A stretch of 34,526 nucleotides of DNA from Rhodocyclaceae bacterium (GTDB lineage Bacteria > Pseudomonadota > Gammaproteobacteria > Burkholderiales > Rhodocyclaceae). The stretch spans positions 28,395-62,920 of the forward strand of contig JAGRFQ010000006.1 in assembly GCA_020445945.1 (NCBI GenBank), given 5' to 3'. The first letter of the stretch is position 1; each line of letters opens with the position of its first letter. Below, piece after piece: positions 1,145-26,114 of the stretch. Position numbers and translations under genes: made by a program. The notes under the pieces were generated by a model. It was not told the DNA's origin and ran no database searches. It saw only the letters and a program-made list of their open reading frames with translations.

Positions 1145-5071
<3,927 letters not shown>

Positions 5072-10846: not shown

Positions 10847-13800
10847 TCAGGCCAGGTTGCGCAACTCCCGCAGGGTGACGGACAGCATCGGCATGTCGGT
10901 GGCGGTGCTGCTCCGGATGTCGGCAAACAGTTGCTGGCTGCGTTCGATCTGGGTGGCGCGCTGGGTCTCCCAGGCCTGCATCAGCGCGTCGGGGTCGGTG
11001 AGGTCCGGCGACAGGCGCAGGACGTCGACGGCGAGGTTGCGGGCCTGGGTGGAGAGGTCGTCGCGCAAGGCCGCGCGGGCCAGTACCTGCCAGTGGGTTT
11101 CGGCGGGCAGGGTGGCGATCTGGTGGCCCAGCCAGTGCAGGTCGAAGCGGCCGCCGAGGGCGAAGTAGACCTGCGCCGCGGTGTTCTGGTTGCGCCCGGT
11201 TTCATCCGCGATTTCCACCAGATCGAGCGCCGAATACAGCTCGCCAAGCCCGGCGATGCGTTTGGCCAGTGCCTCGGGTACGCCGCGTTGCACGTAGGCT
11301 TCGGCGGCGGCATCGATCTGGCTGCGGTAGGCCGGGGTGACCACATCGTACAAGGTGTTTGCCAGATCCGTGGCGCCGGGGACGAAGCGTGCGAGGGTGG
11401 CCGACAGGTCGGTGGTCAATGCGGGGTGGCGCAGGAACCACAGCGTACCGCGCAGGACGAGCCGCGACGCGTCGAGAATCATCTCGGTCTGCAGTGCGTC
11501 TTCGACCTGGTTGTCGAGCGCTTCGATGGCCGACCACAGGGAGAACAGATCGAAGGCTTCCCGGGCGGCGAGGTAGGCGCGGACGATCTCGGGCACGCTG
11601 GCGCCGGTTTCGTCCTGCAGCCGGCTGACGAAGGTTGCGCCGACGCGGTTGATCATGCTGTTGATGACGTGGGTGGCGATGATCTCGCGCTTGAGCGGGT
11701 GGCGCTGGATCTGCTCGGCGTAGCGCTCACGCAGCGCGACCGGGAAGTAGCGGAACAGGGCTTGCGAGATGTAGGGGTCTTCGGGGATGTCCGATGCGAG
11801 GACGGCGTCGTAAACCTCGATCTTGCTGTAGGCCAGCAAGACCGCGAGCTCGGGCGATACCAGGCCGCTGCGGGCGGCCTTGCGTTCGGCGATTTCCTCG
11901 TCGAAGGGCAGGAATTCGAGTTTGCGGTTGAGGCGCCCGGCGTTGCCGAGTTTGCGCATGAAGCGGGCCTGTTCGTCGAGGAGTTCTAGCCCGCGCGCAC
12001 GGGTCACCGACAGGGTCTGGGTCTGGAAGTAGTTGTCGCGCAGCACCAGTGCAGCGACTTCGTCGGTCATGTCGAGCAGCAGCTGGTTGCGCTGCTTGTT
12101 GGTGAGTTCGCCTTCGGCAACCACGCCGTTGAGCAGAATCTTGATGTTCACTTCGTGATCGGAGCAATCGACGCCGCCGGAGTTGTCGATGGCGTCGGTG
12201 CACACTCTGCCGCCGTTGAGGGCGAATTCGATGCGCCCGAGTTGGGTCGCGCCCAGGTTGCCGCCTTCGCCAAACACCTTGCAGCGCAGCTCGCGGCCGT
12301 TGACGCGCACCGCGTCGTTGGCGCGGTCGCCCACTGCGGCGTCGGTCTCGCTGGTGGCCTTGATGTAGGTGCCGATGCCGCCGTTGTAGAGCAGGTCGAC
12401 CGGCGCCTTGAGGATGCAGCGGATCAGCTCGGTGGGCGGCAGCGCGGTGGCGTCGGTGTCGAGCACCGCACGCATCTGGTCGGTGAGCGGGATCGACTTG
12501 GCGCTGCGCGGCCAGATGCCGCCGCCCGCGGAGATCAGTGCGCGGTTGTAGTCGTCCCACGACGAGCGCGGCAGGGCGAACATGCGGTCGCGTTCGGTCC
12601 AGCTGGTTTCGGGGTCTGGATCGGGGTCGAAGAAGATGTGACGGTGGTCGAAGGCCGCGACGAGCTTGATCTGGCGCGACAGCAGCATGCCGTTGCCGAA
12701 TACGTCGCCCGACATGTCGCCGATGCCGACCACGGTGAACGGTTCTTCCTGGGTGTTGACGCCCATTTCGCGGAAGTGGCGTTTGACCGATTCCCACGCG
12801 CCGCGCGCGGTGATGCCCATCTTCTTGTGGTCATAACCCACCGAGCCGCCCGAGGCGAAGGCGTCGTCGAGCCAGAAGCCGTACTCGGCGGCGACGGCGT
12901 TGGCAATGTCGGAGAAGGTGGCGGTGCCCTTGTCGGCAGCGACCACGAGGTAGGGGTCGTCCTCGTCATGCCGCACCACCGCGGCGGGGGGCACGACGTC
13001 GCCGAGCACGAGGTTGTCGGTCAGGTCGAGGAGACCGGACAGGAAGGTGCGGTAGCAGGCGATGCCTTCGGCCAGCATGGCTTCGCGGTCGCCGCCGGGT
13101 GGCGGATTCTTGACCACGAAGCCGCCCTTGGAGCCGACCGGCACGATGACCGCATTCTTGACGATCTGGGCTTTCACCAGGCCGAGAATCTCGGTGCGGA
13201 AGTCTTCCATCCGGTCCGACCAGCGCAGCCCGCCGCGGGCGACCTTGCCGCCGCGCAGGTGGACGCCCTCGACCCGCGGCGAGTACACGAAGATCTCGAA
13301 CATCGGCTTCGGTTCGGGCAGGTTGGGGATGCGTCGCGGGTCGAACTTGAACGACAGGTAGGGCTTGGGCCGGCCATCCTTGCCGGGCTGGAAGTAGTTG
13401 GTCCGCAAGGTGGCCTGGATGACGGCCAGAAACTGGCGCAGGATGCGGTCTTCGTCGAGGTTGGCGACGGTGTCGAGGGTGGCGTTTATTTCTTCGACAA
13501 GCGCTTCGCAGCGGGTGCTGCGACTGACTTCCTGCGCGGGATCGAAGCGCGCCTTGAACAGCGCAACCAGCTGTGCGGTGAGCGCCGGGTAATGCGCCAG
13601 CGTCTGCTCCATGTAGGTCTGGCTGAAGGTGAAGGCGGCCTGCTTCATGTGCTTGGCGTAGGCGCGCAACATGGCAACCTCGCGCCAGCCGAGGCCGGCG
13701 AGCAGGGTCAGCCGGTTGAAGTCGTCGTTCTCGATCTCGCCGCGCCACACGCGCTGGAAGGCTTCGTGGAACAGCGGGCGGACCGCGTCGAGGTTGAGCT

Positions 13801-15667
13801 CTTCGACGCCTTCAAAGGTCATGCCGAAGTCATGCACCCACACCAGCGTGCCGTCGCTGCGTTCGATGCGGTTGGGGCGCTCTTCCTCGACCTTGACGCC
13901 GGTGCGTTCGAGCATCGGCAGGCTGGATGACAGCGCGACCGGCGCCCCGACATGGAAGAGCTTGAAGTTGAGGCGTCCGGGCGGGGCCTCGAGCGGGATG
14001 TAGAGGTTCATCCCGAGGCCATTGTCCGGGTCGATCGATTCCATCAGCTCGATGTCGTGTACCGCGATGCGGGCGGCGTACTCTTCGCGATAGCCGGCGG
14101 GGAAGGCGTTGAGATAGCGCCGCGCCAGGCGCATGCCGCGCTCTTCGCCGTGATGTTCGAGCAGGGCGTGCTGCAGGCCGTCTTCCCAACGCCGCGCGAC
14201 GTTGACCAGGCGCTGTTCGATCTCGCGCACGTCGAAGGGCGGAATGACCGAGTCCTTGGTGCGCACGATGATCAGCAGGCGCGCCAGTGCGGACTCCGAA
14301 AAATGCACCTCGAACTCCGAGGAGCTGCCCTCGAAGGACTCCATCAGCTGTGCCTGGATGCGCTTGCGCTGCTCGGTGTTGTAGTGCTCGCGCGGGACGT
14401 AGATGAGGCAGGAGACGAAGCGCGCGAAGGCGTCGGGGCGGACGAACAGGCGAATGCGCTGACGCTCTCCGAGGCGCAGGATGCCGGTGGTGGTGGTGAA
14501 CAGCTCGTCGACCGAGCTCTGGAAAAGCTCGTCGCGCGGGTATTGCTCGAGGATCGTGCGCAGCGCCTTGCCGGCGTGGCTCTTGGGCATCAGCCCGGCG
14601 CGCTCGATCACGCTCTGGACCTTGCGACGCAGTAGCGGAATGCGTTTGGGGTTGGTGTTGTAGGCGGTCGAGGTGAGCAGGCCGATGATGCGCCGCTCGC
14701 CGGTGACGCGCCCGTCGGCGTCGAAGGTCTTGACGCTGAGGTGGTCGAGATAGCCATGACGATGCACCGTCGAGCGGGTGTTGGATTTGGTGATGGTGAA
14801 CAGGTTGGGCAGATGGGCCTGCGCCTTGAGCTGCGGCGGCAGGGCGGCGAAGGACAGCGACTGGGTGGCGTCGCTGGTTTCGCGCAGCAGCCCGAGGCCG
14901 GAGCCGCTGCGGATGCGCAGCTCGTTCTCGCCGCCGTCGCTGATCAGGTCGTAGTCGCGGCAACCGAGCAGGACGAAGTTGTCGTCTGCCAGCCACTCCA
15001 GAAACTCCTTGATTTCGGCGATGTCCTCGGGCTTTTCGGGCGCCGTGGTGGTGCCGACCTCTGCGATCACGTCGGCCAGCCGCTGGGTCATCGCCGGCCA
15101 GTCGGCAACCGATTCGCGGACGTCGGCGAGCACGTCTTCGAGCCCGGACTTGATCGCCGCCATGTCGGCGGGCTCGGTGCGGCGGTCGACCTCGACGTGA
15201 ATCAGCGATTCGTAGGGCACGCCACCGGGCGCTTCGTCTTCGGCCAGGTGCAGGAAATGACCGCCCGCATCACGCGCCACGGCCATCACCGGGTGGATGA
15301 TCAAGTGCAGGGTGAGCCCCTGGCGGTTGACCTCCATGCCGATCGAGTCGACCAGAAACGGCATGTCGTCGCCGACCAGCTCGATCACGGTGTGGGTGGA
15401 CTCCCAGCCGTGCTCGTCGATGCGCGGGTTGTACACGCGCACCTTGGTGCCGGTGTCGCGCTTGCGCGCGAACTGCCAGTGGTTGAGCACTGCGCCGTAC
15501 AGATCGGCGACTTCGCGTTCGGCCAGATCGTCGCTGTCAACCTGGTTGAAATAGTGGCGCGCAAAGGGCTCGATGATGGCGGCCTGCGCCGGCGGGAGCT
15601 TGGCGTGAATGGCCGCGACGACACCCTCGATCTGGCTGGTGGCGGCTTCTTCGGCGCGTGGTGTCAT
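10847..15667 (-). CDS. gdhB: NAD-specific glutamate dehydrogenase, 180 kDa class
   Basis: Encodes 1606 residues, the normal length of the large bacterial NAD-GDH (Bac_GDH family). It oxidises glutamate to 2-oxoglutarate and ammonia in the cytosol and is used mainly for catabolism. A long N-terminal regulatory region begins with [20 protein letters not shown] and contains the conserved block around [20 protein letters not shown] (about 97-116). The catalytic core lies near residues 800-1150, with [20 protein letters not shown] and [10 protein letters not shown] and, further on, [15 protein letters not shown]. The C-terminal half is helical and typical of this class. The start has a strong GAGGAG ribosome site. 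It lies 69 bases after the decarboxylase gene on the same strand, so it may be read from the same message. That would place glutamate disposal with the polyamine/GABA genes upstream. The sequence looks intact. Confidence 0.96.
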   Translation of the reverse strand: [1606 protein letters not shown]

Positions 15668-15736: not shown

Positions 15737-18490
15737 TTATTCAAGCGCCTGGATCACCGGCTTGGCTTCGAGCGCAGCGAGCGCTTCCGCGGTGAAGATG
15801 CGCAGCCCCAGTTCCGGCCGGTAGCCATGAATCTCGGTAACGTCCAGCGCGCGCATGAAGGCGATGATCTCCTGGCTGATGACCTGCCCCGGCACCAGAA
15901 TCGGGAAGCCCGGCGGGTAGGGGATGACGAAGGTGGTCGACACCAGCTGGCGACCGGCGGCGAGTGCCTTCTCGAAGGCGTTGCCCTCGATGGGAATATA
16001 GTCGCACTTGCCTTCGTCATAGGCCAGAAAAAAGGCCGAGCGGATGTCGCCCTCGGGCGTGCCGTTGCCGGCGCTGATGCGGAAGGCGTCGTGGAAGCAA
16101 CTGAAGTCGGGCAGCGGCGGCAGGTCTTCGCGCAGCGCCTTGACCTTGCGCTCGAAGATTTTCTTCTCCACCGCGCTGGCGTCGTCGAGCCGCTCGTCGA
16201 GCTCGCTGGCGATCTTGACCAGCACTTCGATGAGGTAGGCAATCGACGAGCGCGTGGTGCCGATGTTGGTCATGAACAACACCGTGTTGCGCGAGGTCTT
16301 GTTGATCTGGATGCCGTGGCGATCCATCAGGATCTGGTTCTTGAAGGTGTCGCCATCCCAGCCCGAGCCGGCCACCGAGAGGGTGATACGGGTGGCGTCG
16401 AGCACGAATTCGTCCTCGCTCCACGCTTCGGCGATGTCGCTCCAGCCGTGTTCCGGGTCCCAGTAACTCTTGATGCCCGACTTGCGGTATTCGGCCGGAA
16501 TCATCTCCGCCACGGTGAGCACGCGGAAATACTTGCTGATCAGCGGGTGGTGGTTGATCGCCTTGCGCAGCGACATGGCTTGCTCGACCTGGCGCTGGAT
16601 GAACTCGAAGCCTTCGAGCTCCACCTGCCGCCGGCCGACATCGAGCGAGGCGATGATCTGGTAGTTCGGCGAGGTCGAGGTGTGGGTCATGTAGGCTTCG
16701 TGAAAGGCCTGTTCGACCTCGTCCTTGAAGTCCTGGTCATGCACGTGAATCATCGAGCCCTGACGCAGCGAGGTGAGCGTCTTGTGGGTCGACTGGCAGG
16801 TGTAGACGCGCACCCGCACCTTGTCCGGGTCGGGCATCAGGCGGGTCTTGAGCAGGGTTTCCTCGTCGGCGCCGGCGATTTTCTCGGCATGTTTGGCATA
16901 CGCGGCCCGATACTCCGGCGAGCGGAAGCGCTCACGCAGCAGGCCGGCGCAATGCATGCCGGTGCGGCGGCGGTAGGCCGGGCCGAAGCGCGCGAAGGCA
17001 AACCAGGCTTCGTCCCACAGAAAGACCAGATCGGGCTTGATGGCGAGGCACTCTTCCATCACCCGCTCGACGTTGTAGACCACCCCGTCGAAGGTGCAGT
17101 TGGTGAGCAGCAGCATGCGCACCCGGTCGAGCTTGCCGGCGGCCTTGAGTTCGAGCAGGCGGTGCTTGATCTCGCGGACCGGCACCGCGCCGTACATCGA
17201 GTAGTCGTTGAGCGGATAGCTGTCCAGATACACCACCTGCGCGCCGGCCAGCACCATGCCGTAGTGGTGCGATTTGTGGCAGTCGCGGTCGACCAGCACG
17301 ATGTCGCCGGGGCGGACGATGGCCTGCACCACGATCTTGTTGCAGGTCGAGGTGCCGTTGGTGGAGAAGAAGGTCTGCTTGGCGCCGAAGGCGCGGGCGG
17401 CCTTTTCCTGCGCCTTCTTGATCGGGCCGTGCGGCTCCAGCAGGCTGTCCAGCCCGCCGGAGGTGGCGGAGGTTTCGGCGAGGAAGATGTTCATGCCGTA
17501 GAAGTCGCCCATGTCCTTGATCCAGTGCGAGCGGGTGATCGACTTGCCGCGGCTGATCGGCATGGCGTGAAACACGCCGGTGGGCTTGCGCGCGTACTGG
17601 GTGAGGGCGTTGAAGAAGGGCGCCTCGTAGCGGTCGGAGACGCCGCGCAGGATGTTCAGATGCAGTTCGAGGTGGTCTTCCTGGTTGTAGAACACGCGCC
17701 GGCAGTTGCCCAGATTGGCGCCGGCGATCTCCTCGACCGACTGGTCGGTGAACAGGAAAACGTCGAGCTCGGGCCGGACCTTGGCGATCAGACGGCACAG
17801 CTCGGGGCCGTATTCCTTGGGCTCGACATCCTGCAGGGCGTCTTCTTCGAGGCGCGACAGGTAACGGTGCAGGATCTCCAGGGTCTGATCCGATTCCAGA
17901 TTGAGCCCGTTGCGCACCACCACGGTCTGCACGTTGTGGTTGAACATCACCGCGATCAGCGCGTCGGTCAGGCTGGGGACGAACACCGGCTCGTAGACGA
18001 AGGGGTCTTCCGGCCGGCGCATGCTGGCCATGGTGCGACGCAGGTTGGCTTCCTGCATCGGGCTGAAGTTGTCGACGAACAGCACTTCGAAGTAGAGCAC
18101 CTCCTTGCTGCGCTTTTCGTTCGATTCCTCGTCGCGTTCGAGCAGCTCGTCGATGTCCTGGTGCTGCGGATTGCGCCGGTAGCTGTTGCTCAGCAAGGCG
18201 GCGCAGATCGAGTTCACCGTGGTGGCCAGGGTTTCGATTCGCCCCTCGTTGAGAAAATCGGCGAGGCGGTCGAAGGTCGTGTGGCCGGGGAAGGCCCAGT
18301 ACAGCTCGATCGGGCGCAGCACCTCTATCAACTCGCGGATCTTGCGTTCGGCCTCCGCCGTCTTGCGCTCGCTCTGCGCCTGGGTGAGCTGCACGCACGC
18401 GATCTTGAGCGCCGTCCAGCGGTCGGTCCGCAGCTGTAGCGCGCTGTAGTATTCACCGAGCGACTTCTTGGTTTTGCTGCCTGCCTTCAT
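15737..18490 (-). CDS. Orn/Lys/Arg decarboxylase family protein with long N-terminal extension
   Basis: A PLP-dependent basic amino acid decarboxylase (fold-type I, the SpeC/LdcC/AdiA family) of 917 residues. The PLP-binding lysine is K570 in CQSTHKTLTSLRQGSMIHV. D493 in LWDEAW holds the pyridine nitrogen, and FFSTNGTSTCNK (374-385) is the phosphate-binding region. Products would be putrescine, cadaverine or agmatine plus CO2; I cannot tell the substrate from sequence. In E. coli relatives the lysine falls near residues 355-386 of 711-755, so this protein has about 190 additional residues in front, partly a receiver-like wing domain and partly unrecognised. ATG 18490 has a GAGGAGA site at good spacing and begins a basic stretch (MKAGSKTKKS). 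It follows the C45-type hydrolase gene by 69 bases and precedes GDH by 69 bases, all on one strand. Confidence 0.92.
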   Translation of the reverse strand: MKAGSKTKKSLGEYYSALQLRTDRWTALKIACVQLTQAQSERKTAEAERKIRELIEVLRPIELYWAFPGHTTFDRLADFLNEGRIETLATTVNSICAALLSNSYRRNPQHQDIDELLERDEESNEKRSKEVLYFEVLFVDNFSPMQEANLRRTMASMRRPEDPFVYEPVFVPSLTDALIAVMFNHNVQTVVVRNGLNLESDQTLEILHRYLSRLEEDALQDVEPKEYGPELCRLIAKVRPELDVFLFTDQSVEEIAGANLGNCRRVFYNQEDHLELHLNILRGVSDRYEAPFFNALTQYARKPTGVFHAMPISRGKSITRSHWIKDMGDFYGMNIFLAETSATSGGLDSLLEPHGPIKKAQEKAARAFGAKQTFFSTNGTSTCNKIVVQAIVRPGDIVLVDRDCHKSHHYGMVLAGAQVVYLDSYPLNDYSMYGAVPVREIKHRLLELKAAGKLDRVRMLLLTNCTFDGVVYNVERVMEECLAIKPDLVFLWDEAWFAFARFGPAYRRRTGMHCAGLLRERFRSPEYRAAYAKHAEKIAGADEETLLKTRLMPDPDKVRVRVYTCQSTHKTLTSLRQGSMIHVHDQDFKDEVEQAFHEAYMTHTSTSPNYQIIASLDVGRRQVELEGFEFIQRQVEQAMSLRKAINHHPLISKYFRVLTVAEMIPAEYRKSGIKSYWDPEHGWSDIAEAWSEDEFVLDATRITLSVAGSGWDGDTFKNQILMDRHGIQINKTSRNTVLFMTNIGTTRSSIAYLIEVLVKIASELDERLDDASAVEKKIFERKVKALREDLPPLPDFSCFHDAFRISAGNGTPEGDIRSAFFLAYDEGKCDYIPIEGNAFEKALAAGRQLVSTTFVIPYPPGFPILVPGQVISQEIIAFMRALDVTEIHGYRPELGLRIFTAEALAALEAKPVIQALE

Positions 18491-18559
18491 GGTGTGTCTC
18501 CTCACCAAAATCCGTGCATCGAGGCTGCGTGTGCCGCACGCGGCCAGCGCGCTTCGTGT

Positions 18560-19564
18560 TCAATGGGTCGGCGCTGCGTCGCCGAAGCGAATCAGACATT
18601 CGCCCGGCGTAAAGTAGTCAAACGACTGCGGCCAGTGCCGTCCCGGCCAGAAGAAGTCGGCGCGCGCCTCGGTCGGCCAGTACGCGGCCGAGTACAGCGT
18701 GCCGAAGCCGCGCGAAAATGCGGTCGAGTAAATCGGGGGTTTCAGGAACGCGCCGATCAGGGTGTCGGCGCTGAGTTCGGCGTCATGCAGCATCAGCAGC
18801 AAACGCCGGTGACGCTCCACCGTGGCGGTGGCGCTGGCGTGCTGGTGCCACTCGATCTTGTGCTGGTGGTTGGTGGCCACCGCGGTACGGCGGATGTCGC
18901 CGGGCTTGTCGGGAGCGACATACACCGTGGCAAAGTCGCCGCTGCGGTCCACCACCGTAACGTTGTAGCTCATGTGCACCGGGATGCGCGCCAGCGCCGC
19001 GGCGGCCTCGGCGCAGCGGGTGCAGGTCTCCAGCACATAGCGCAACACCAGCGGCACGCCGAAGCCCTCGCCGACGTCGCGCCGCCCGCCGAATGACAGC
19101 GAAACGGCGAGCCCGTCCTCGTTCATGCCGTCGAGCAGGCCCCACAGGCAGTCGCTGACGCCCATCACCCGGCGGCCGTTCCATGCGGTTTTGAGGATCA
19201 CGCCTTCGCACAACTGGGCGGGATAGTCGTAGTTGCGCACCAGCACCGGCCGATCGCCCGGCCACACCGCCTGCGAGCATGCCGACACGTACGGCGGCGG
19301 GCAGAACAGCGACAGGAAGCGCGCCTCCAGATCGCCGCCGCCGGCGATCTCGACCAGCGCTTCGTAGGTCGGCAACAGCTCCGGCATGTGCTCGCGCAAG
19401 GCGCGCACGCAGGGCAGGTAATAGGGTCGCGCGGCGTCGCCGCTTTGCAGATACCAGCGCTGATACGACGGCCAGAACGCGTCGAAGAGCGACCGCCAGG
19501 CCGCACCCGGCCGCGCCTCTTCGACCGCGCGAAACAGCAGCGACTGGTTCTGGATGAGCGACAT
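18560..19564 (-). CDS. C45-type Ntn hydrolase / acyltransferase-like protein
   Basis: Encodes 334 residues resembling the peptidase C45 / acyl-CoA:6-aminopenicillanate acyltransferase group of Ntn hydrolases. The core reads SACSQAVWPGDRPVLVRNYDY. C96 is the likely nucleophile, and the RNYDY at 110-114 is the strand seen after the catalytic cysteine in choloylglycine-hydrolase-like and C45 enzymes. In family members, autoproteolysis just before the cysteine frees it as the N-terminal residue; here that would release a propeptide of about 95 residues. The family cleaves or transfers amide-linked acyl groups, but the substrate here is unknown. There is no signal peptide, so it is probably cytosolic. 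It starts 16 bases after the ATP-grasp gene, so the two are almost certainly co-transcribed. A ligase directly beside an amide-bond hydrolase suggests that one makes and the other breaks (or transfers) the same bond. Confidence 0.8.
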   Translation of the reverse strand: MSLIQNQSLLFRAVEEARPGAAWRSLFDAFWPSYQRWYLQSGDAARPYYLPCVRALREHMPELLPTYEALVEIAGGGDLEARFLSLFCPPPYVSACSQAVWPGDRPVLVRNYDYPAQLCEGVILKTAWNGRRVMGVSDCLWGLLDGMNEDGLAVSLSFGGRRDVGEGFGVPLVLRYVLETCTRCAEAAAALARIPVHMSYNVTVVDRSGDFATVYVAPDKPGDIRRTAVATNHQHKIEWHQHASATATVERHRRLLLMLHDAELSADTLIGAFLKPPIYSTAFSRGFGTLYSAAYWPTEARADFFWPGRHWPQSFDYFTPGECLIRFGDAAPTH

Positions 19565-19580
19565 TGGCCGCGCGCTCCGC

Positions 19581-21044
19581 TCAGAGGATCTTGAACGCCC
19601 CGGCCGTCGGCGCCGGTTCCGCCAGCTCCTGCACCGCGCCGATCGGCCGGCCCGAATAGCACTTCTGGATGCCCTCGATCCAGCGCTCGGCGCGTGTGTT
19701 GAGCGAGAACGCGTCGGTCATCGAGCGTCCGCGGGTAATCAGGATGCCCAGGTCGGCGCCCTCGTAGCGGTAGTCGCCCGGCCCGGTGATGCGCAGCCAG
19801 AACGCCTCGTTTTCGCTCTCCACGGCCAGGCGGTGATAGTCGAAGCGGTGAAAGCTCACGTTGCCGGCTGCGTCCATGCGGTAGATGCCCGACTCGGGCG
19901 CTTCTTCGACGATGTCCACCGTGTCCGCGGTGTGCTTCATCACCAGCTGGCTCCAGCTGTCGATGTACTTGGGGTTCTTCCAGCGCTCGTTCATGGCGGC
20001 GACGTCGAGGTCGAAATCGACGCCGCTGTATTCGAGCAGGTGGAAGAAGAACAGCGGTGCATCGGCGTAGGCAAAGGCGGCGTGGTTGGTCATCGGGCTG
20101 GCGCCGCAGATGCGCGGGTTGAGCTCGCCCAGATAGACCTCGTCGGTGTCCTGGTCGATCAGGAAGTCGAGGTCGAAATAGCCGCGATACCCTTCCTTGA
20201 GCAACTGGTTGCCGAAGGCATAGGCGTAGTCGCGCGCGGTGATGCGCGCCTTTTCGGAGAAGGCGCCGGGGAAGACCTCGTTGCCGCACCAGCCGCCCTT
20301 GTAGGGCGTCAATTGCTTCTGGCCGACGATCTCGGTGAGCAGCGGGCCGACCACCGTGCCGCAGCGGGTGACGCAGGCTTCGAGCGTGCCGCCGCGGCAG
20401 TTGATGCGCTTCATGACCTTGACTTCGGGATCTTTCACGATCTCGTCGGCGTACTTCTTCCATTCCTCTTCGTTGGAGATGAAGAAGGTGGTGTGGCCGG
20501 AATCGCCAAAGGCGGTCTGAATCACCAGATCGGTGCCGAGCTTGTGCGCCTCGGTCAGCTTGAGCAGATGTTCATAGCTCTCGACCCTGGACAGGACGTT
20601 GGGCACCGACGGCACGCCGGCCTTGTTGCCGATGCGCACGGTTTCCATCTTGTTGTCGCAGCGGGTGCGCAACGCGGCCGAGGGGAACCACACCTCGATG
20701 CCCAGCTCCTTGCACAGCGCTTCGGTTTTTTCGTCGAACATCAAAAAGATCGCCACCGGATCGCCGCCGCGCCCCTTGATGTAGTCGAGCACTTCCTTGT
20801 GCTGGAGCAGGTAGTTGTTGATGTCTTCGATGCCCTCGAACTCCGGGTGCGGTTGTTCGCTGGGCACGAACACGTTCGGGTGGCGGCCGTCGAAGCAGTC
20901 GATGTAGTTGATGTGCTTGAAGTGCGGCACCCGCTCGTCCATGCCGGCGAGGTTGAAGTTGGTGGCACTGATGAAGTAGATCGGACGCTCGTTGCGATGA
21001 AAGAACAGACGCAGGTCCGACATGCTGGTGATTTTTTCGCTCAT
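19581..21044 (-). CDS. ATP-grasp ligase (biotin-carboxylase-like fold), substrate unknown
   Basis: Encodes 487 residues from ATG 21044, which has a strong GAGGAG site. The ATP-grasp signature is clear: the Mg-binding acidic residues D291/D293 in GYFDLDFLID and E307/N309 in YLGELNPRICGA. The nucleotide-binding region includes VIQTAFGDSGHTTFF (174-188). An N-terminal pre-ATP-grasp part (about 1-130) includes ATNFNLAGMDERVPHF. ATP-grasp enzymes join a carboxylate, via an acyl phosphate, to an amine, thiol or biotin. There is no biotin carrier domain or carboxyltransferase nearby, so automatic 'biotin carboxylase' naming would be misleading; an amide or peptide ligase is more likely. The frame stays open upstream to ATG 21167, which also has a good ribosome site (GGAG, 8-base spacing). 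That start would add 41 residues beginning with a membrane helix (MTYLMLGLFLAFLVWLGV), so a membrane-anchored 528-residue form is possible. Confidence 0.86.
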   Translation of the reverse strand: MSEKITSMSDLRLFFHRNERPIYFISATNFNLAGMDERVPHFKHINYIDCFDGRHPNVFVPSEQPHPEFEGIEDINNYLLQHKEVLDYIKGRGGDPVAIFLMFDEKTEALCKELGIEVWFPSAALRTRCDNKMETVRIGNKAGVPSVPNVLSRVESYEHLLKLTEAHKLGTDLVIQTAFGDSGHTTFFISNEEEWKKYADEIVKDPEVKVMKRINCRGGTLEACVTRCGTVVGPLLTEIVGQKQLTPYKGGWCGNEVFPGAFSEKARITARDYAYAFGNQLLKEGYRGYFDLDFLIDQDTDEVYLGELNPRICGASPMTNHAAFAYADAPLFFFHLLEYSGVDFDLDVAAMNERWKNPKYIDSWSQLVMKHTADTVDIVEEAPESGIYRMDAAGNVSFHRFDYHRLAVESENEAFWLRITGPGDYRYEGADLGILITRGRSMTDAFSLNTRAERWIEGIQKCYSGRPIGAVQELAEPAPTAGAFKIL

Positions 21045-21167
21045 TTCGGGTCTCCTCACGGGCGATGGCAGATGTGCTTCTCGTGGCTTCTGCGGTTTTT
21101 GTGCGGTGTTGCGGACGCCCAGCCAGACGAGAAAAGCGAGAAACAGGCCGAGCATCAGGTAGGTCAT
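21045..21167 (-). other. Possible small membrane-peptide leader in frame with the ATP-grasp gene
   Basis: The 149-base gap between the nitrilase and ATP-grasp genes contains an ATG at 21167 preceded by GGAG at 8-base spacing. It is followed by 41 codons with no stop before the ATP-grasp ATG. The first 18 residues form one membrane helix; the rest is basic and proline-rich (TAQKPQKPREAHLPSPVRRP). It is either an N-terminal anchor of the ligase or a chance open stretch ahead of the real start at 21044. Confidence 0.4.
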
Positions 21168-21193
21168 CAAAGGTTCTCCAACGCGGCGTGTGC

Positions 21194-22162
21194 TCAGTAA
21201 CCGTGCGGATGTGCCGGGGGGGCGGCATCCGACGACGTGGCGTCGTCGTCATCGGCCGCCTTGTCCGGTCCGGCGATGGCCTCGGACGGCAAGGCCACCC
21301 CGGCACGCGAACCGCGGCTGGGCTTGATCAGCGGGCCGAGACTGTTCAGATAGCTGTCGATCTCGGTGTTGCGCTGGTACACCGGAAACTCCACCGGTCG
21401 GTCGCGGAAGCTCTTGAGCGTCTGACCCAGTCCGCGAATGCCGACCTCGCGCTCGCGGCGCACGCGTGACAGGTCGATTTCGACCGGAATCGTCTCCTCG
21501 CCGCCGCCAGCCTCGTGAATCACGTAGCCCGAGGGGCCGACCACGATCGAGCGCCCGGTGCCGCAATCGCCCACGCCGTTGATGTCGAAGAAGTAGCACT
21601 GGTTGATGGTGGCGTTGGCGCGCGCCAGCGGCAGCTCGACATCGCGGTCGATGGTGTCGGTCATGGTCGGGTGCAAGATGCACTCCGCGCCCATCGCCAC
21701 CAGCGTGCGGGTGGTTTCGGGAAACCACATGTCGTAGCAGATCGAGACCCCGAAGCGGCCGATCTCGGGCACGTCGAACACGCAGAACTCCTCGCCGGGT
21801 TTGATGCCCGTCTCGTAGGGCTGGAACGGAAACATCTTGCGATAGCGGGTCACAACATGGCCGCTGGGGTCGATCACCGGCGTCGTGTTGTAGATATCGT
21901 CGCCGACGCGTTCGAACAAGGAGCCCGGCAACAGCCACACGCCATGCTTGCGCGCCATCTGGCAAAAGATCTGCTCGGCGTGCCCGCCCGCCGGTTCGGC
22001 GTGATAGGGCGATGGGCCATAGGCCGCCAGTTCGCTGAACATCACCATCTGGACCCAGGGAAAGCGGGACATCAGCACATCCAGCTTTCGCCCCATGGCA
22101 GTGATGTTTTCATGCGCCGTCGAGATGTTCATCTGAACGCCGGCAATCGCAAACGGAATCAT
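21194..22162 (-). CDS. Nitrilase-superfamily carbon-nitrogen hydrolase
   Basis: Encodes 322 residues with the full Glu-Lys-Cys triad of the nitrilase superfamily: E44 in MFSELAAYGP, K109 in YRKMFPF and C142 in ICYDMWFPETTR. These enzymes hydrolyse C-N bonds in amides, carbamoyl amines or nitriles. Polyamine relatives include N-carbamoylputrescine amidase, and aliphatic amidases and omega-amidases are also close in fold, so the precise substrate is open. The catalytic domain ends near residue 275. The last 50 residues are unusual and low in complexity, with an acidic DDDD run and a His/Pro-rich end (HPHGY), and are probably disordered. ATG 22162 has GGAG at 8-base spacing and begins the first strand (IPFAIAGVQMN). 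The gene lies between the XRE/cupin regulator (52 bases upstream) and the ATP-grasp gene on the same strand, which supports a role in the same pathway. Confidence 0.88.
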   Translation of the reverse strand: MIPFAIAGVQMNISTAHENITAMGRKLDVLMSRFPWVQMVMFSELAAYGPSPYHAEPAGGHAEQIFCQMARKHGVWLLPGSLFERVGDDIYNTTPVIDPSGHVVTRYRKMFPFQPYETGIKPGEEFCVFDVPEIGRFGVSICYDMWFPETTRTLVAMGAECILHPTMTDTIDRDVELPLARANATINQCYFFDINGVGDCGTGRSIVVGPSGYVIHEAGGGEETIPVEIDLSRVRREREVGIRGLGQTLKSFRDRPVEFPVYQRNTEIDSYLNSLGPLIKPSRGSRAGVALPSEAIAGPDKAADDDDATSSDAAPPAHPHGY

Positions 22163-22214
22163 TCGGTTACTCCGGTAAGGTCGGGGGCAAGCCTGTGCAG
22201 ACTGGGCGCTGAGC

Positions 22215-22856
22215 CTAGAACGAGGGCGGCGAGCAGGCGCTGACCAGCTCGCACTCTTCATCGCCGAGGTTGCGGAAACGGTGCGGCAGACGGCTGTCGA
22301 AGTAGTAGCCATCGCCGGGCCCGAGGACGGTGCTCTGGTGGCCCACGGTGACCTCGATGCGCCCGCGGATGATGAAGCCGCCTTCCTCCGCCTCATGTGT
22401 CAACATCGTTTCACCGGTGTCGGCGCCGGGCGGATAGGTCTCGGTCATGATCTGCATCGAGCGCCCGCCGAGTTGGTCGCCGAGCTGGCGGAAACGGATT
22501 GCGCCGTTGTCCATGACCTTCATTTGCTGCGCGGCAAAAAATACCGGCGAGGGGGTAACGTCCTCGACAGCGCTGAAAAAATCCGCCAGCGACAGGGGAA
22601 TCCCGGACAGGACTTTCTTGAGGAGCGACACCGACGGACTGGTCTTGTTCTGCTCGATCAGCGAGATCATGCCGTTGGTCACCCCCGAGCGCCGCGCCAG
22701 CTCCCGTTGGGACAGGCCATGCAGATGGCGCAACTCGCGCAGCCGGTCGCCCACGAACGGGGTCTCGGAAGGGGGGCTGGCGTCGCTTGATATATTCAAC
22801 GCCACGCCTTTCTTCGGCTGTGTCAGCTGCGCTGCCTGGTCGACCGCATTCGCCAT
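22215..22856 (-). CDS. XRE-family regulator with C-terminal cupin domain, PuuR-like
   Basis: Encodes 213 residues. A helix-turn-helix of the XRE type spans about 36-92 (DRLRELRHLHGLSQRELARR, then SGVTNGMISLIEQNKTSPS). A cupin-2 fold spans about 135-205, with H154, E155 and P191-H192 in the pocket. This architecture and the wording of the HTH are those of PuuR, the putrescine-responsive repressor of E. coli, and relatives that control amine and amino acid catabolism. The ATG at 22856 is preceded by GAGGTG. It is the first gene of the minus-strand cluster, so it probably regulates itself and the nitrilase, ATP-grasp, C45 and decarboxylase genes behind it. A PuuR-like site lies 82-96 bases upstream. 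The ligand is likely a polyamine or a derived metabolite, by analogy only. Confidence 0.9.
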   Translation of the reverse strand: MANAVDQAAQLTQPKKGVALNISSDASPPSETPFVGDRLRELRHLHGLSQRELARRSGVTNGMISLIEQNKTSPSVSLLKKVLSGIPLSLADFFSAVEDVTPSPVFFAAQQMKVMDNGAIRFRQLGDQLGGRSMQIMTETYPPGADTGETMLTHEAEEGGFIIRGRIEVTVGHQSTVLGPGDGYYFDSRLPHRFRNLGDEECELVSACSPPSF

Positions 22857-22999: not shown

Positions 23000-24489
23000 T
23001 CAGGCGCCGATGCGCTGGCGCCCGAGATGGCGCTGAACGATGGCGCACAAACGCCCGGCGGCAGCGTCGATGTCTTCCGAGCGCACCGCGGCGAACCCGA
23101 GCACCATCCCCGTGCGGCGATGCGCCGGGTTGTCGTAGTACATCGACAGCGGACGGAGCACGATGCCGGCATCGAGTGCGTCCTTGGCCAGCGCCACGTC
23201 GTCGAGCGGGGTCTCGAAAAAGTAGGGCAGATGCAGCCCGGCAAGGCCGCCGGTGGTGGTCACATGTGCGCCAAGACGGGGCTCGATGGCCGCGCGCAGC
23301 ACGTTGCGCCGCTCCTGGTACACATTGCGCATGCGCTTGAGGTGGGCGCTCAGATGCCCCCCTCGATGAACTCGGCAAGCGCCGCCTGTTCGATCATGCG
23401 GCCCTCGCGATACAGCTCGGCGTTACCGATCGAAAAGGCCTCGGCGAGGTGCTCGGGCACCACCAGGTAGGCCAGCCGCAAGCCCGGAAACATGACCTTG
23501 CTGAAGGTTCCGAGGTAGAGCACCCGCTGGGTGCGCGACTGGCCGAACAGCGACCCGAGGGTGTGCGGGTGATAGCGGATCTCGTTGTCGTAGTCGTCCT
23601 CGATGATCCACGCGCCGTGCAGCTCGGCCTGTTCGAGCAGACTCAGGCGGCGCGCCAGCGACATCACCGCGCCGGTCGGGTACTGGCTCGACGGCGACAC
23701 GAACATCAGCCTGGGCGGGGGCCCGTCCAGGGTCTCGGGCGGCGCGATGCCTTCATCGTCCACCGCCACCGGCACCAGCTGCAGTCCGTTGGCACGCAGG
23801 ACGTTGCGTGCGCCCCAGTAGCCCGGCTCTTCCATCCACACCCGGTCGCCGGGATCGCACAGCATGCGCGCGCACAGGTCGATCGCCTGATGCGACCCGT
23901 TGAGGATCAGGATCTGCTGCGGCGAGCACACCATCATGCGCGAGACGCGCAGGTACTCGGCCAGCGCGACCTTGAGCGGCCCGTAGCCGCCCTGGCTGTA
24001 GCGCGCCAGGTGGCGTTGCTCGAAGCGCACATTTTTCGACAACAGCCGACGCCAGGTCGGGAACGGGAACAGGCCCACGTCGGGCACGCCGGGCACGAAG
24101 GCGCCGCCTTGAATGCGGCTGCTCGTGGCGTGGCGGGCGATTTCCTGCCCGCGCTGCGACAAAGCCGCGGTCGGAGCAGGGCGGGGGGATTTGTCCGGGC
24201 TGGCGAGCATCGCGGTGGGCAGGGCTTCGGACACCGACGTGGCCGCGCCGCCACGGCTTTGCAGATAGCCTTCCCTCACCAGTTGGGCGTAGACGCGCAC
24301 CAAGGTGCTGCGGCTGAAACCCAGCGCATCGGCCAGCGTGCGGGTCGGTGGCAGGGCGGTGCCGGGCAGCAATGAGCCATCGAGGATGAGATGTCGAATC
24401 GCCAGATACAGCGTTGTACGCACGTTTCGGCCGGATGACTCGCTCCCGAAACGCTGACGGATCAGCTCAAGATAGCGTGCGTGACCCAC
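23000..24489 (-). pseudogene. MocR/GabR-type regulator (GntR HTH plus aminotransferase domain), interrupted by a frameshift
   Basis: The first frame (24489 to 23350) gives a GntR winged helix (about 24-84, LPPTRTLADALGFSRSTLVRV) and most of a fold-type I aminotransferase domain. The latter has D298/D299 in IIEDDYDNE and PLP lysine K331 in TFSKVMFPGLRLAY. It stops at FIEGGI. The missing C-terminus continues in another frame to 23000 (HLSAHLKRMRNVYQERRNVL onward, ending RQRIGA). Adding one G to the run of six at 23357-23362 joins the parts into a normal protein of about 496 residues with FIEGGHLSAHLKRM at the seam. The start is GTG 24489, without an obvious ribosome site. It is divergent from gabD-gabT, the arrangement seen for GabR, which activates GABA use. 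This is either a one-base sequencing error, a homopolymer-slippage switch or an inactive gene. Confidence 0.85.
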
Positions 24490-24538: not shown

Positions 24539-24659
24539 ATTGCGCCGATTTGATGGCTAGAATCAAGGCATCACCGCCCTGCGTCTGCCGTCGAGCCCCG
24601 CCCGGACGGCGCCCCGGCACCGCGCGACCGATGTGTGCAGTCACCACGGAGACACGACC

Positions 24660-26114
24660 TTGAAGCTTTCAGACACTACCTTGCTCAAGCAGCAGTGCTA
24701 CATCGACGGTGAATGGAGCGGTGCCGACGGCGGCCAGACCGTCGCGGTGCTCAACCCCGCCACCGGGGAGACGCTGGCCACCGTGCCCGATGCCGGCGCC
24801 ACGGAAACCCGCCGCGCCATCGAGGCGGCGCGCCTCGCCCAGCCGGCGTGGCGCGCATGCACCGCCGGCGAGCGCGCCAAAGTGCTGCGCCGCTGGTACG
24901 AACTGCTGCTGGAGAACCAGGAAGATCTGGCCCGCCTGATGACGGCCGAGCAGGGCAAGCCGCTGGCCGAGTCGCGGGGCGAGATCGCCTATGCCGCCTC
25001 GTTCATCGAATGGTTCGCCGAGGAAGGCAAGCGCATCTATGGCGATATCGTTCCGCCGCATCACGTCGACAAGCGTGTTCTGGTGACCAAGGAGCCGATC
25101 GGCGTGTGCGCGGCCATCACCCCGTGGAATTTTCCCGCCGCGATGATCACCCGCAAGGCCGGCCCGGCGCTGGCCGCCGGATGCGCGATGGTGCTCAAGC
25201 CGGCCGAGGCCACGCCGCTGTCGGCGCTGGCGCTGGCCGAACTGGCCGAACGTGCCGGGGTGCCGAAGGGCATCTTCAGCGTGCTGACCGGCGATGCGCG
25301 CGCGATCGGCGGCGAGATGTGTGCCAACCCCACGGTGCGCAAACTGAGCTTTACGGGGTCGACCGAAGTTGGCCGCATCCTGATGCAGCAGTGCGCGCCG
25401 ACGATCAAAAAGCTGTCGCTCGAACTCGGCGGCAACGCGCCGTTCATCGTTTTCGACGATGCCGATCTGGATGCCGCGGTGCAGGGCGCGATGGCATCCA
25501 AATACCGCAACGCGGGCCAGACCTGCGTGTGCGCCAATCGTCTGCTGGTGCAGGACGGCATCTACGATGCGTTCGTCGCCCGGCTGGCCGATGCGGTCGC
25601 CGCGCTGAAGGTCGGCAACGGCGTCGATGACGGCGTGACGCAAGGGCCGCTGATCGACGACGCAGCCATCGCCAAGGTCGAGGCGCTGGTCGACGATGCA
25701 CGCGAGAAGGGCGCCCGGGTGGTGTGCGGCGGTACGCGCCACGCGCTCGGCCGGACCTGGTACGTGCCGACCATTCTGGCCAATGTCACCCCGGCGATGC
25801 GCCTCGCCCGCGAGGAGGTGTTCGGCCCGGTGGCGCCGGTGTTCCGCTTCAAGACCGAAGCCGAGGCGATTGCGATGGCCAACGACACGGAGTTTGGCCT
25901 GGCGTCGTATTTCTATACCGAGAACCTGGCCCGCACGATGCGCGTCTCCAGCGCGCTGGAATACGGCATCGTCGGCGTCAACACCGGGCTGATCTCGACC
26001 GAGGTGGCGCCGTTTGGCGGCATGAAATCCTCCGGCCTGGGGCGCGAAGGCTCGAAGTACGGCATCGAGGATTACCTGGAAATCAAACACGTCTGCATCG
26101 GCGGTATCGAGTGA
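24660..26114 (+). CDS. gabD: Succinate-semialdehyde dehydrogenase
   Basis: A 484-residue aldehyde dehydrogenase of the GabD group, which oxidises succinate semialdehyde to succinate with NAD(P)+ as the last step of GABA breakdown in the cytosol. The catalytic cysteine is C289 in NAGQTCVCANR, the general base is E255 in LELGGNAPFI, and the cofactor region has ITPWNFPAAMITRK and FTGSTEVGR. Sequence such as FIEWFAEEGKRIYGD is characteristic of SSADH rather than general aldehyde dehydrogenases. The start is TTG 24660, chosen because GGAG lies 8 bases upstream and the protein then begins MKLSDTTLLKQQCYIDGEWSG, as family members do. A GTG at 24633 would add nine residues with no support. gabT follows after 31 bases, and the GabR-like regulator is divergent. 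Confidence 0.94.
   Translation: MKLSDTTLLKQQCYIDGEWSGADGGQTVAVLNPATGETLATVPDAGATETRRAIEAARLAQPAWRACTAGERAKVLRRWYELLLENQEDLARLMTAEQGKPLAESRGEIAYAASFIEWFAEEGKRIYGDIVPPHHVDKRVLVTKEPIGVCAAITPWNFPAAMITRKAGPALAAGCAMVLKPAEATPLSALALAELAERAGVPKGIFSVLTGDARAIGGEMCANPTVRKLSFTGSTEVGRILMQQCAPTIKKLSLELGGNAPFIVFDDADLDAAVQGAMASKYRNAGQTCVCANRLLVQDGIYDAFVARLADAVAALKVGNGVDDGVTQGPLIDDAAIAKVEALVDDAREKGARVVCGGTRHALGRTWYVPTILANVTPAMRLAREEVFGPVAPVFRFKTEAEAIAMANDTEFGLASYFYTENLARTMRVSSALEYGIVGVNTGLISTEVAPFGGMKSSGLGREGSKYGIEDYLEIKHVCIGGIE

Follow-up and report, generated by a model that had tools for sequence, protein, structure and literature searches.

In the Puu pathway of E. coli, ATP-dependent amide ligation and hydrolysis take place around GABA, with a glutamine-synthetase-type ligase (PuuA) and a hydrolase (PuuD). 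D-arginine/ketoarginine catabolism proceeds through DauA, AruI, KauB and a ureohydrolase and, to our knowledge, its descriptions include neither an ATP-grasp nor a C45 gene. In insects, the NRPS-like enzyme Ebony couples an omega-amino acid to an amine, and Tan, a member of the C45 family, splits the product. In the butirosin system the ATP-grasp ligase BtrJ is paired with the decarboxylase BtrK. According to the accessible text of PMC7857480, BtrK is a PLP enzyme converting carrier-bound glutamate to a GABA unit, and in the FigA/FigC system the conjugate is formed first, citryl-ornithine being decarboxylated afterwards.

The gene set studied here is located in a Denitromonas draft genome, within a stretch of 34,526 nucleotides (the window). 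A sequence-only reading had proposed that five co-directional genes form an undescribed polyamine or amino acid conjugation pathway led by a PuuR-like regulator, with gabDT and a glutamate dehydrogenase next to them. All five ORFs were present and intact on the minus strand, between positions 15737 and 22856, and Pfam and NCBIfam models agreed with the assigned families (XRE + cupin, CN_hydrolase, ATP-grasp, AAT/C45 and OKR_DC_1). The genes of the set and its neighbours are:

22215..22856, minus strand: XRE + cupin regulator of the PuuR superfamily, below the PuuR cut-off (NF007408)
21194..22162, minus strand: nitrilase-superfamily C-N hydrolase (NIT) with an E-K-C triad and a second Glu
19581..21044, minus strand: ATP-grasp ligase (GRASP) of the NF005096/PRK06524 family, 772 bits; core gene
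18560..19564, minus strand: C45 autoproteolytic Ntn amidohydrolase/acyltransferase (NF040521); core gene
15737..18490, minus strand: OKR-fold PLP decarboxylase (DEC, PF01276), 917 aa, like PDB 9n0n
10847..15667, minus strand: large NAD-glutamate dehydrogenase (GDH, PF05088), 69 bp downstream of DEC
23350..24489, minus strand: MocR-type GntR/aminotransferase regulator, upstream of the set; three best models below cut-off
24633..26114, plus strand: gabD, NADP-dependent succinate-semialdehyde dehydrogenase (NF008415, 837 bits, cut-off 828)
26146..27450, plus strand: gabT, 4-aminobutyrate transaminase (TIGR00700, 564 bits, cut-off 507)

The locus resembles the Puu pathway in its predicted amide ligation and hydrolysis, in the XRE-cupin regulator and in the vicinity of gabT/gabD. 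It differs in that the ligase is of the ATP-grasp type and the hydrolases are a C45 protein and a nitrilase, neither a PuuA-type ligase nor PuuD being found within the cluster; moreover, the regulator is not conserved and DEC occurs in 54 of 80 related loci. With butirosin it shares the pairing of an ATP-grasp ligase with a PLP decarboxylase, but the cluster has no carrier protein and BtrK has an alanine-racemase fold. The likeness to Ebony/Tan, here predicted from the genes, lies in the coupling and splitting of an amide, although the cluster ligase is an ATP-grasp enzyme.

The likely starts are 22856 (XRE), 22162 (NIT), 21044 (ATP-grasp), 19564 (C45) and 18490 (DEC), leaving gaps of 52, 149, 16 and 69 bp between successive genes. 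For NIT the ATG at 22162 was preferred because the longer ORF, starting at 22396, overlaps the XRE gene. The ATP-grasp ORF extends in frame to an upstream ATG at 21167, from which a membrane-anchored long form may start. Since no terminator-like site was listed on the minus strand between DEC and GDH, GDH may be a sixth gene of a putative operon. A scan for sigma-70 consensus promoters found none and was uninformative.

Conservation of the gene set

Among 398 Pseudomonadota genomes, the ATP-grasp gene was found in 11, the decarboxylase in 17 and C45 in 13. The proposed pathway was to be abandoned if the genes failed to occur together elsewhere. They do occur together: all 11 ATP-grasp genomes also contain the decarboxylase and the C45 family, and in the ten genomes other than the window's own the three lie on one stretch. 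Hypergeometric probabilities of co-occurrence with ATP-grasp, in which the kinship of genomes is ignored, were 1.4e-17 for the decarboxylase and 9e-20 for C45 (3.3e-16 and 2.8e-18 with the own genome left out). The ATP-grasp gene was present in five of nine congeners; four of these five carry all nine genes, from gabT-gabD-MocR through GDH, in identical order, and in the fifth the contig stops inside the gene set. The occurrence in congeners, the preserved gene order and the co-occurrence among the 398 genomes show that the cluster is not a product of chance. The five genes were thereby confirmed to be real, intact and conserved, and no description of the set was found in the literature searched, as the sequence-only reading had anticipated.

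A one-genome-per-species scan yielded 388 stretches encoding relatives of the ATP-grasp protein, with E values of up to 1e-3. The best 80 of the 388, all with at least 65% identity, were read; polyphosphate-accumulating bacteria from sludge are among them, as are Acinetobacter and Rhizobiales, and a plasmid search added legume symbionts as carriers. No relative was found among 168 pattern matches in viral contigs. When 99 loci were scanned for the ATP-grasp ORF, two had no complete one. As gene calling misses some ORFs, loci were counted by tblastn; in these counts, which come from loci sharing ancestry and not phylogenetically independent, C45 was found in 79, NIT in 64 and DEC in 54 of the 80. 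The core of the module is thus ATP-grasp plus C45, usually with the nitrilase. The gabDT genes reported next to the set are indeed there, and across the 80 loci gabT was matched in 37 and gabD in 24. XRE regulators were matched in only 10/80, less commonly than MocR-type proteins (29/80), and the XRE + cupin protein scored 129 bits with the PuuR equivalog model (cut-off 211). This regulator is confined to Denitromonas and a small number of relatives, and the notion that a PuuR-like protein leads the set does not hold in general.

Ligase, hydrolases and decarboxylase

Presumed catalytic residues of NIT, C45, DEC and ATP-grasp were checked in representative aligned rows picked from a set non-redundant at 78% identity. 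The ATP-grasp protein exceeds the cut-off of NF005096 (PRK06524; 772 bits, cut-off 684), an accession of which no mention was found in the literature searched, and Lys132, Lys209, Glu307 and Asn309 are intact in 21/21 rows. Foldseek with the predicted model (pLDDT 89.5) gave ATP-grasp matches at superfamily level only, with 10-16% identity among the 50 matches listed. The C45 protein scored 186 bits with NF040521 (cut-off 85). Its Cys96, Arg110 and Asp113 are intact in all 37 rows; Cys96, the nucleophile, is preceded by Ala, the residue there being Gly in 31 of the 37. The C45 model (pLDDT 95.6) has an Ntn fold and matches isopenicillin N acyltransferase (TM 0.71), which it also resembles in having the Cys nucleophile behind about 95 residues, although identity to such C45 enzymes is 14-15%. 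Its predicted fold and its nucleophile would suit a C45 hydrolase of the Ebony/Tan type. In the nitrilase, E44, K109 and C142 are intact in 21/21 rows; its best NCBIfam model, AguB, gave 72 bits (cut-off 410). Judged from these families, the ATP-grasp enzyme probably builds an amide bond and C45 and the nitrilase probably break one, so that the ligase-plus-hydrolase logic of the sequence-only reading remains the natural one.

DEC (PF01276, 261 bits) has the PLP-binding Lys570, Asp493 and His405 in 24/24 rows. It shares the PLP Lys, the Asp, the HK motif and the major domain with LdcI, AdiA and SpeC/SpeF, but has some 150-165 more residues before the shared core and falls far below all curated Lys/Orn/Arg decarboxylase cut-offs (best 221 bits versus 968). 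The Glu of the LdcI/AdiA EKTG motif (E526 in LdcI), which presumably binds the basic side chain of the substrate, is replaced by Asn (Asn730) in 24/24 cluster DECs, in the closest solved relative, 9n0n (Rv2531c), and in all five lone DECs inspected (a sixth DEC-only genome, G170, was left out). The motif reads NKTSRN in 21, NKTTRN in two and NKTSPN in one of the 24, an Arg thus being added in 23, and NKTSRN in 5/5 lone DECs; 9n0n has the Asn without the Arg. The activity of Rv2531c is described as unclarified in the accessible text of PMC12910592.

The neighbours of DEC suggest a link to acidic amino acids. All five lone DECs adjoin an AspT-type antiporter (four by family search, one of these above the AspT cut-off, and the fifth by a near-identical start). 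Acidic-amino-acid genes were found in 32/54 DEC loci. Acidic-type transporter matches, some of them 3-6 kb from the core, occurred in 28/54 DEC loci versus 0/12 loci of the second type described below; the symporter (DctA, 362 versus 513) and binding-protein (GltI, 242 versus 375) matches were below cut-off, and only a TAXI match was above. Glutamate dehydrogenase lies near DEC in Denitromonas and in loci L177 and L124, the order GDH-DEC-GRASP-C45 recurring in L177, which belongs to another family; PutA follows C45 in L178, and gabT or gabD was matched in 32/54 DEC loci.

Because of the Glu-to-Asn change, the added Arg and these neighbours, DEC is probably not a conventional Orn/Lys/Arg enzyme. 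We propose that it is a glutamate decarboxylase; the AspT-type antiporters speak for aspartate just as much. A simple cadaverine/putrescine operon was set aside on the same grounds. What stands of the sequence-only reading is therefore the conserved ligase-hydrolase set; a leading PuuR-like regulator and an ordinary Orn/Lys/Arg decarboxylase are not supported, and polyamines become less likely as substrates, GABA or glutamate fitting better. Cap15-like oxidative decarboxylation to a carboxamide was considered and dropped, the evidence pointing neither way.

Upstream partners and host routes

The 80 loci differ in the partner that would act upstream of the core in metabolism: 54 have DEC, 12 have genes of a second type (racemase, D-amino-acid dehydrogenase and aldehyde dehydrogenase), none has both, and 14, some cut at contig ends, have neither. 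The 12 embed the module in a gene set like that of D-arginine/ketoarginine catabolism. In L119, a plasmid copy of the second type, matches to AruI (737 bits versus 500), agmatinase (212 versus 174) and D-amino-acid dehydrogenase (474 versus 383) are above cut-off, and by family names these would give a route from arginine to GABA. The racemase model matched in second-type loci, an ornithine racemase, was below cut-off (393 versus 480). In the tree, at least three changes of the second-type label are forced: second-type Thiofilum is separated from the Rhizobiales, whose second-type clade has nif-linked rhizobial rows of the DEC type nested in it. Three Labrys genomes have a second-type locus and DEC elsewhere, and both routes can therefore share a genome.

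In the five cluster-bearing Denitromonas genomes tested (of six), neither arginase-family ureohydrolases (PF00491) nor agmatine deiminase (PF04371) were matched, which would leave agmatine without an exit by these two known routes, AguA/AguB and agmatinase. Four of the five cluster-bearing congeners were tested for a PF00282 decarboxylase and each had one above cut-off, the own genome having none above it; DEC therefore need not be the sole source of GABA. Ornithine/arginine decarboxylases of another fold (PF02784) were present in 11/11 genomes searched and do not discriminate.

A proposed GABA amide cycle and its alternatives

We consider it most plausible, with a probability of roughly one in three, that ATP-grasp and C45, with or without the nitrilase, are a portable ligase-hydrolase module for amides of GABA or a closely related omega-amino acid, to which DEC is an interchangeable source of GABA. 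Imported or catabolic glutamate would be decarboxylated to GABA by DEC; in other genomes arginine or ornithine would yield GABA through racemase, D-amino-acid dehydrogenase, AruI, aldehyde dehydrogenase and ureohydrolase. The ATP-grasp enzyme would link GABA with a second partner, and C45, the nitrilase or both would hydrolyse the amide, returning GABA to gabT/gabD and hence to succinate. With gabT/gabD nearby, ligation of GABA seems futile unless the steps are separated in time by regulation, and in second-type loci the substrate of the module could be arginine, ornithine or guanidinobutyrate rather than GABA.

A Puu-like protection scheme is a possible but doubtful alternative. DEC would make putrescine, cadaverine or agmatine, the ligase would attach glutamate or a dicarboxylate to shield the omega-amine, and after transamination and oxidation C45 or the nitrilase would free GABA; or ornithine or lysine would be acylated first and the conjugate decarboxylated, a precedent for which is N-citrylornithine decarboxylase (FigA/FigC; accessible text of PMC7857480). 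The gabT/gabD neighbours suit this scheme, a glutamyl donor would be in keeping with the glutamate-related neighbours, and an acylated, neutral side chain would likewise be compatible with the missing EKTG Glu. A PuuC-like aldehyde dehydrogenase lies beside the NIT-GRASP-C45 trio in L078 (689 bits, cut-off 850), another in L083 shares 70% identity with it, and L078 has a Hist_deacetyl gene, taken as an acetylpolyamine amidohydrolase, with a 37% match in L143. Against it, no PuuB-like oxidase was found among the genes examined, acidic substrates are a better match for the DEC motif and the AspT-type neighbours, and in Aquitalea and two Acinetobacter loci the trio lacks a DEC gene; those of their genomes that were searched have no DEC orthologue. 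That the cluster makes a small amide product or signal of the GABA or beta-alanine type, for instance in root nodules, with C45 as acyltransferase, appears unlikely: uptake systems and catabolic enzymes recur as neighbours and no recurrent exporter was recognised among those read, even though a copy adjoins nif genes in Rhizobium leguminosarum, sigma-54/NifA-type sites precede DEC in two Sinorhizobium meliloti plasmids of the same arrangement, and the C45 fold matches include an acyltransferase.

Slightly less likely still is an arginine-centred nitrogen route, in which DEC would be an arginine (or oxidative) decarboxylase and the trio would strip guanidino or amide nitrogen where ureohydrolases are missing. 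The lack of PF00491 and PF04371 matches in the five Denitromonas genomes and the AguB match, though far below cut-off, are in its favour, as are the arginine-type genes around the module in 12/80 loci (AruI in 10). However, ureohydrolases are present in 8/10 non-own sampled cluster genomes, second-type loci usually have their own (8/12), which would make the module redundant, and DEC has no acidic residue in its EKTG motif. Candidate substrates of the trio on this route are agmatine, 4-guanidinobutyrate and 4-guanidinobutyramide. That the ATP-grasp enzyme is a true carboxylase, using bicarbonate to carboxylate a small amine or guanidine, with hydrolases that undo carbamates, is very improbable. 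It is suggested by the name 'biotin carboxylase' that NCBI annotation gives to NF005096 and by a fold like those of biotin carboxylase and PurK, but the low-identity fold matches are generic for ATP-grasp and include GAR synthetase. In biotin carboxylase, the E-x-N-x-R motif is followed by a bicarbonate-binding Gln and Glu; here these positions hold Cys/Thr/Ser and Ala (Ile in 2/21), and no biotin-carrier domain was among the cluster Pfam matches. Identity as a biotin carboxylase was rejected on both counts, and the annotated plasmid copies, mostly so named, are probably wrongly named.

The proposed GABA amide module draws on an unusually sharp clue to its hub metabolite, namely the exchange of DEC for an arginine-to-GABA route. 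Its most specific form is more tentative than the Puu-like scheme: an OKR-fold glutamate decarboxylase would feed a portable, hitherto undescribed GABA-amide cycle, a bacterial counterpart of Ebony/Tan, inserted repeatedly into glutamate or arginine catabolism and brought under NifA-type control in Sinorhizobium meliloti. If true, this would be a new decarboxylase specificity for the OKR fold, with a bearing on the activity of Rv2531c, and would reveal another way of handling GABA, new to biology as far as described, encoded by a gene set that is widely conserved in bacteria, often beside genes that make and burn GABA.

The gene set and its core

The genome holding the window is a 3.1 Mb draft. 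The set comprises the following genes, listed with the short names used below.

Genes of the set (window coordinates, strand, description)
22215-22856, minus: XRE-cupin regulator, first in transcription order
21194-22162, minus: NIT, nitrilase-type hydrolase, second
19581-21044, minus: GRASP, ATP-grasp ligase, third
18560-19564, minus: C45, Ntn hydrolase, fourth
15737-18490, minus: DEC, OKR-fold PLP decarboxylase, fifth
69 bp after DEC, minus: GDH, NAD-glutamate dehydrogenase, 1606 residues
23350-24489, minus: MocR-type regulator, upstream of the set on the shared strand
gabD-gabT: divergent from the MocR-type regulator

GRASP was found in five of nine congeners. Four of these five have all nine genes, from gabT-gabD-MocR through GDH, in unchanged order, and the contig of the fifth is cut. 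DEC, GRASP and C45 are also adjacent, at ~45% identity, in L036, a locus from another genus of the same family. When 398 Pseudomonadota genomes were sampled (E up to 1e-40 for GRASP, 1e-120 for DEC and 1e-60 for C45), matches were obtained in 11, 17 and 13 genomes, respectively, and all 11 GRASP genomes had both DEC and C45. Up to 9 kb on either side of GRASP, in ten genomes (the window's own left out), C45 and DEC were present ten times each, NIT eight times, gabD three times and a gabT match (30-31%) twice. In the locus L146, C45 and NIT lie on the opposite strand. In a class-level sample (n=369) GRASP occurred in 10 genomes at 11 places, nine of which were examined, the window's own and one already covered being left out; these had C45 in 9/9, DEC in 6/9 and NIT in 5/9, several of the stretches being cut by contig ends and one being a repeat of the Thiofilum locus.

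A tblastn search of the best 80 of 388 related stretches gave matches to C45 in 79, NIT in 64, DEC in 54, gabT in 37, MocR in 29, gabD in 24, XRE in 10 and GDH in 4; among the 54 of these 80 loci that are flanked by 6 kb or more on each side, the counts were 54 (C45), 50 (NIT), 37 (DEC) and 32 (gabT). These counts identify GRASP-C45 as the core, with NIT next. The PuuR-like regulator, placed at the head of a candidate polyamine or amino acid conjugation pathway by the sequence-only reading, is by the same XRE count a local feature. NIT-GRASP-C45 occurs without DEC in six Aquitalea loci, Acinetobacter qingfengensis and Acinetobacter sp. MB5. Whole-genome searches of both Acinetobacter and three of the Aquitalea genomes detected no DEC orthologue; matches were partial and of classical type in the three Aquitalea genomes and absent from the two of Acinetobacter.

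At least three Accumulibacter genomes carry two diverged cluster copies (L044/L075, L050/L090, L051/L086), one next to TAXI-TRAP genes and the other next to a GltI-like binding protein. In one plasmid of Sinorhizobium meliloti and seven of Sinorhizobium medicae (H25-H32) the GRASP match is only partial, which we read as cluster decay; the surroundings are transposase-rich in the one record examined. In the window, the GRASP gene has an in-frame hydrophobic N-terminal extension (21044-21167, MTYLMLGLFLAFLVWLGV...) with its own ribosome-binding-like site. The extension, present in Denitromonas relatives too, may mean that the protein exists in an anchored and a soluble form, or it may be a small ORF upstream of the gene.

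Two proposed upstream routes

Twelve of the best 80 of 388 loci (Shinella, Rhizobium, Labrys and other Rhizobiales, and Thiofilum) are of a second type, in which racemase, D-amino-acid dehydrogenase and aldehyde dehydrogenase genes take the place of DEC; the families were named from the plasmid copy L119. In 10 of the 12 this set is accompanied by AruI and an amino-acid permease, and in eight by a ureohydrolase. In the Rhizobiales loci the GRASP-C45 pair sits between the aldehyde dehydrogenase and the D-amino-acid dehydrogenase; in Thiofilum NIT-GRASP-C45 precedes the operon. DEC and the racemase/dehydrogenase set were found together in none of the 80. Fourteen loci showed neither upstream set; in three of these (L052, L058 and L100) a contig end cuts the locus off at GRASP, and a DEC is present in the L100 genome. 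Three Labrys genomes with a second-type locus have DEC elsewhere.

In a GRASP tree of 95 rows (near-copies L125 and L148 left out; quick method, SH-aLRT only) the second type requires at least three changes on starred branches; a single gain plus two losses could account for these. Thiofilum and a DEC-type row form a group with support 88, and nif-linked rhizobial DEC-type rows are nested in the Rhizobiales second-type clade. That one input route is swapped for the other suggests that both deliver the same product. Since the second route reads as leading from arginine or ornithine to GABA, we infer that GABA is the simplest common product.

L119 also encodes, at 13791-15578, a fusion of an ornithine-racemase-type racemase with an arginase-family domain (Ala_racemase_N + Arginase). 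On the Sinorhizobium meliloti plasmids L147 and L148, a pair at 5583-5702, made up of a strict sigma-54 -24/-12 site and a NifA-type site ~100 bp before it, lies ~190 bp upstream of DEC, and a second sigma-54/NifA-type pair lies at 4742-4859. Two strict sites per locus were found vs 0.155 expected, at identical positions on plasmids that are not independent. These sites suggest nodule expression of the DEC-GRASP-C45 operon. On a Rhizobium leguminosarum Vaf10 plasmid (L123), DEC-GRASP-C45, a peptide-type ABC transporter and an amidase are divergent from nifHDKE; L122, L123 and L124 yielded no strict sigma-54 site.

Substrate of the decarboxylase

DEC keeps the PLP machinery. The LdcI/AdiA motif EKTG(P/L)Y, whose Glu (LdcI E526, Lactobacillus OrnDC E532) we take to bind the distal amine, reads NKTSRN in 21, NKTTRN in two and NKTSPN in one of 24 DEC rows, and NKTSIN in 9n0n, presumably Rv2531c. 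DEC without GRASP occurs in six sampled genomes. All five examined (L158-L162) have NKTSRN and an adjoining AspT-type antiporter. Family search recognized four of the antiporters, of which one scores above the AspT cut-off and three score below it; the one in L162 was recognized by its near-identical start. An aspartate 4-decarboxylase is also present in one of the five loci. These loci are perhaps decarboxylation-antiport systems.

Acidic-type transporters (SDF symporter, family-3 binding protein most like GltI, TAXI-TRAP) were matched in 28/54 DEC loci, 3/14 loci with neither set and 0/12 second-type loci (28/54 vs 0/12, Fisher 7e-4, the loci not being independent). In eight DEC loci an SDF symporter follows C45 by 54-314 bp; other transporters lie up to ~6 kb off. 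Glutamate dehydrogenase neighbours DEC in Denitromonas, in L177 from another family and in Rhizobium L124, and PutA follows C45 in L178. Because of the motif, the antiporters, the transporters and these neighbours, glutamate (or aspartate) is favoured as DEC substrate over ornithine, lysine and arginine. In line with this, of the six Denitromonas genomes that bear the cluster, the five searched contain neither an arginase-family enzyme nor agmatine deiminase; four of these five have another PF00282 decarboxylase above cut-off.

The proposed cycle on GABA

The putative ATP-grasp residues of GRASP (Lys132, Lys209, Glu307 and Asn309) are invariant in 21/21 rows. Its predicted model (pLDDT 89.5) matches biotin carboxylase, PurK and GAR synthetase at superfamily level only (10-16% identity). 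The name 'biotin carboxylase' is unsupported. The C45 model (pLDDT 95.6) matches isopenicillin N acyltransferase (TM 0.71), ~95 residues preceding the Cys nucleophile, and NIT has E-K-C and a second Glu in 21/21 rows. A putative amide-forming ligase and two putative amide hydrolases would make up a conjugation cycle on GABA, in our view the best reading because these enzymes adjoin GABA-making and GABA-using genes. A Puu-like scheme, in which a polyamine would be protected as an amide and later released, appears rather unlikely; the minority share of belief that it keeps is owed above all to a PuuC-like aldehyde dehydrogenase beside the trio in two loci, L078 and L083.

One paper links Rv2531c to 9N0O and calls its activity unclarified (PMC12910592); according to a heading in another, Rv2531c, whose deletion was tried for growth on arginine, was not crucial (PMC4569260). 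The CATCH-N work on arginine catabolism in Sinorhizobium meliloti profiled the decarboxylases OdcA and OdcB (PMC7268258), neither of which we could connect with DEC. The open-licence literature searched yielded no description of the gene set. Its parts belong to known families; their combination, and the role proposed here for it, are new to us.
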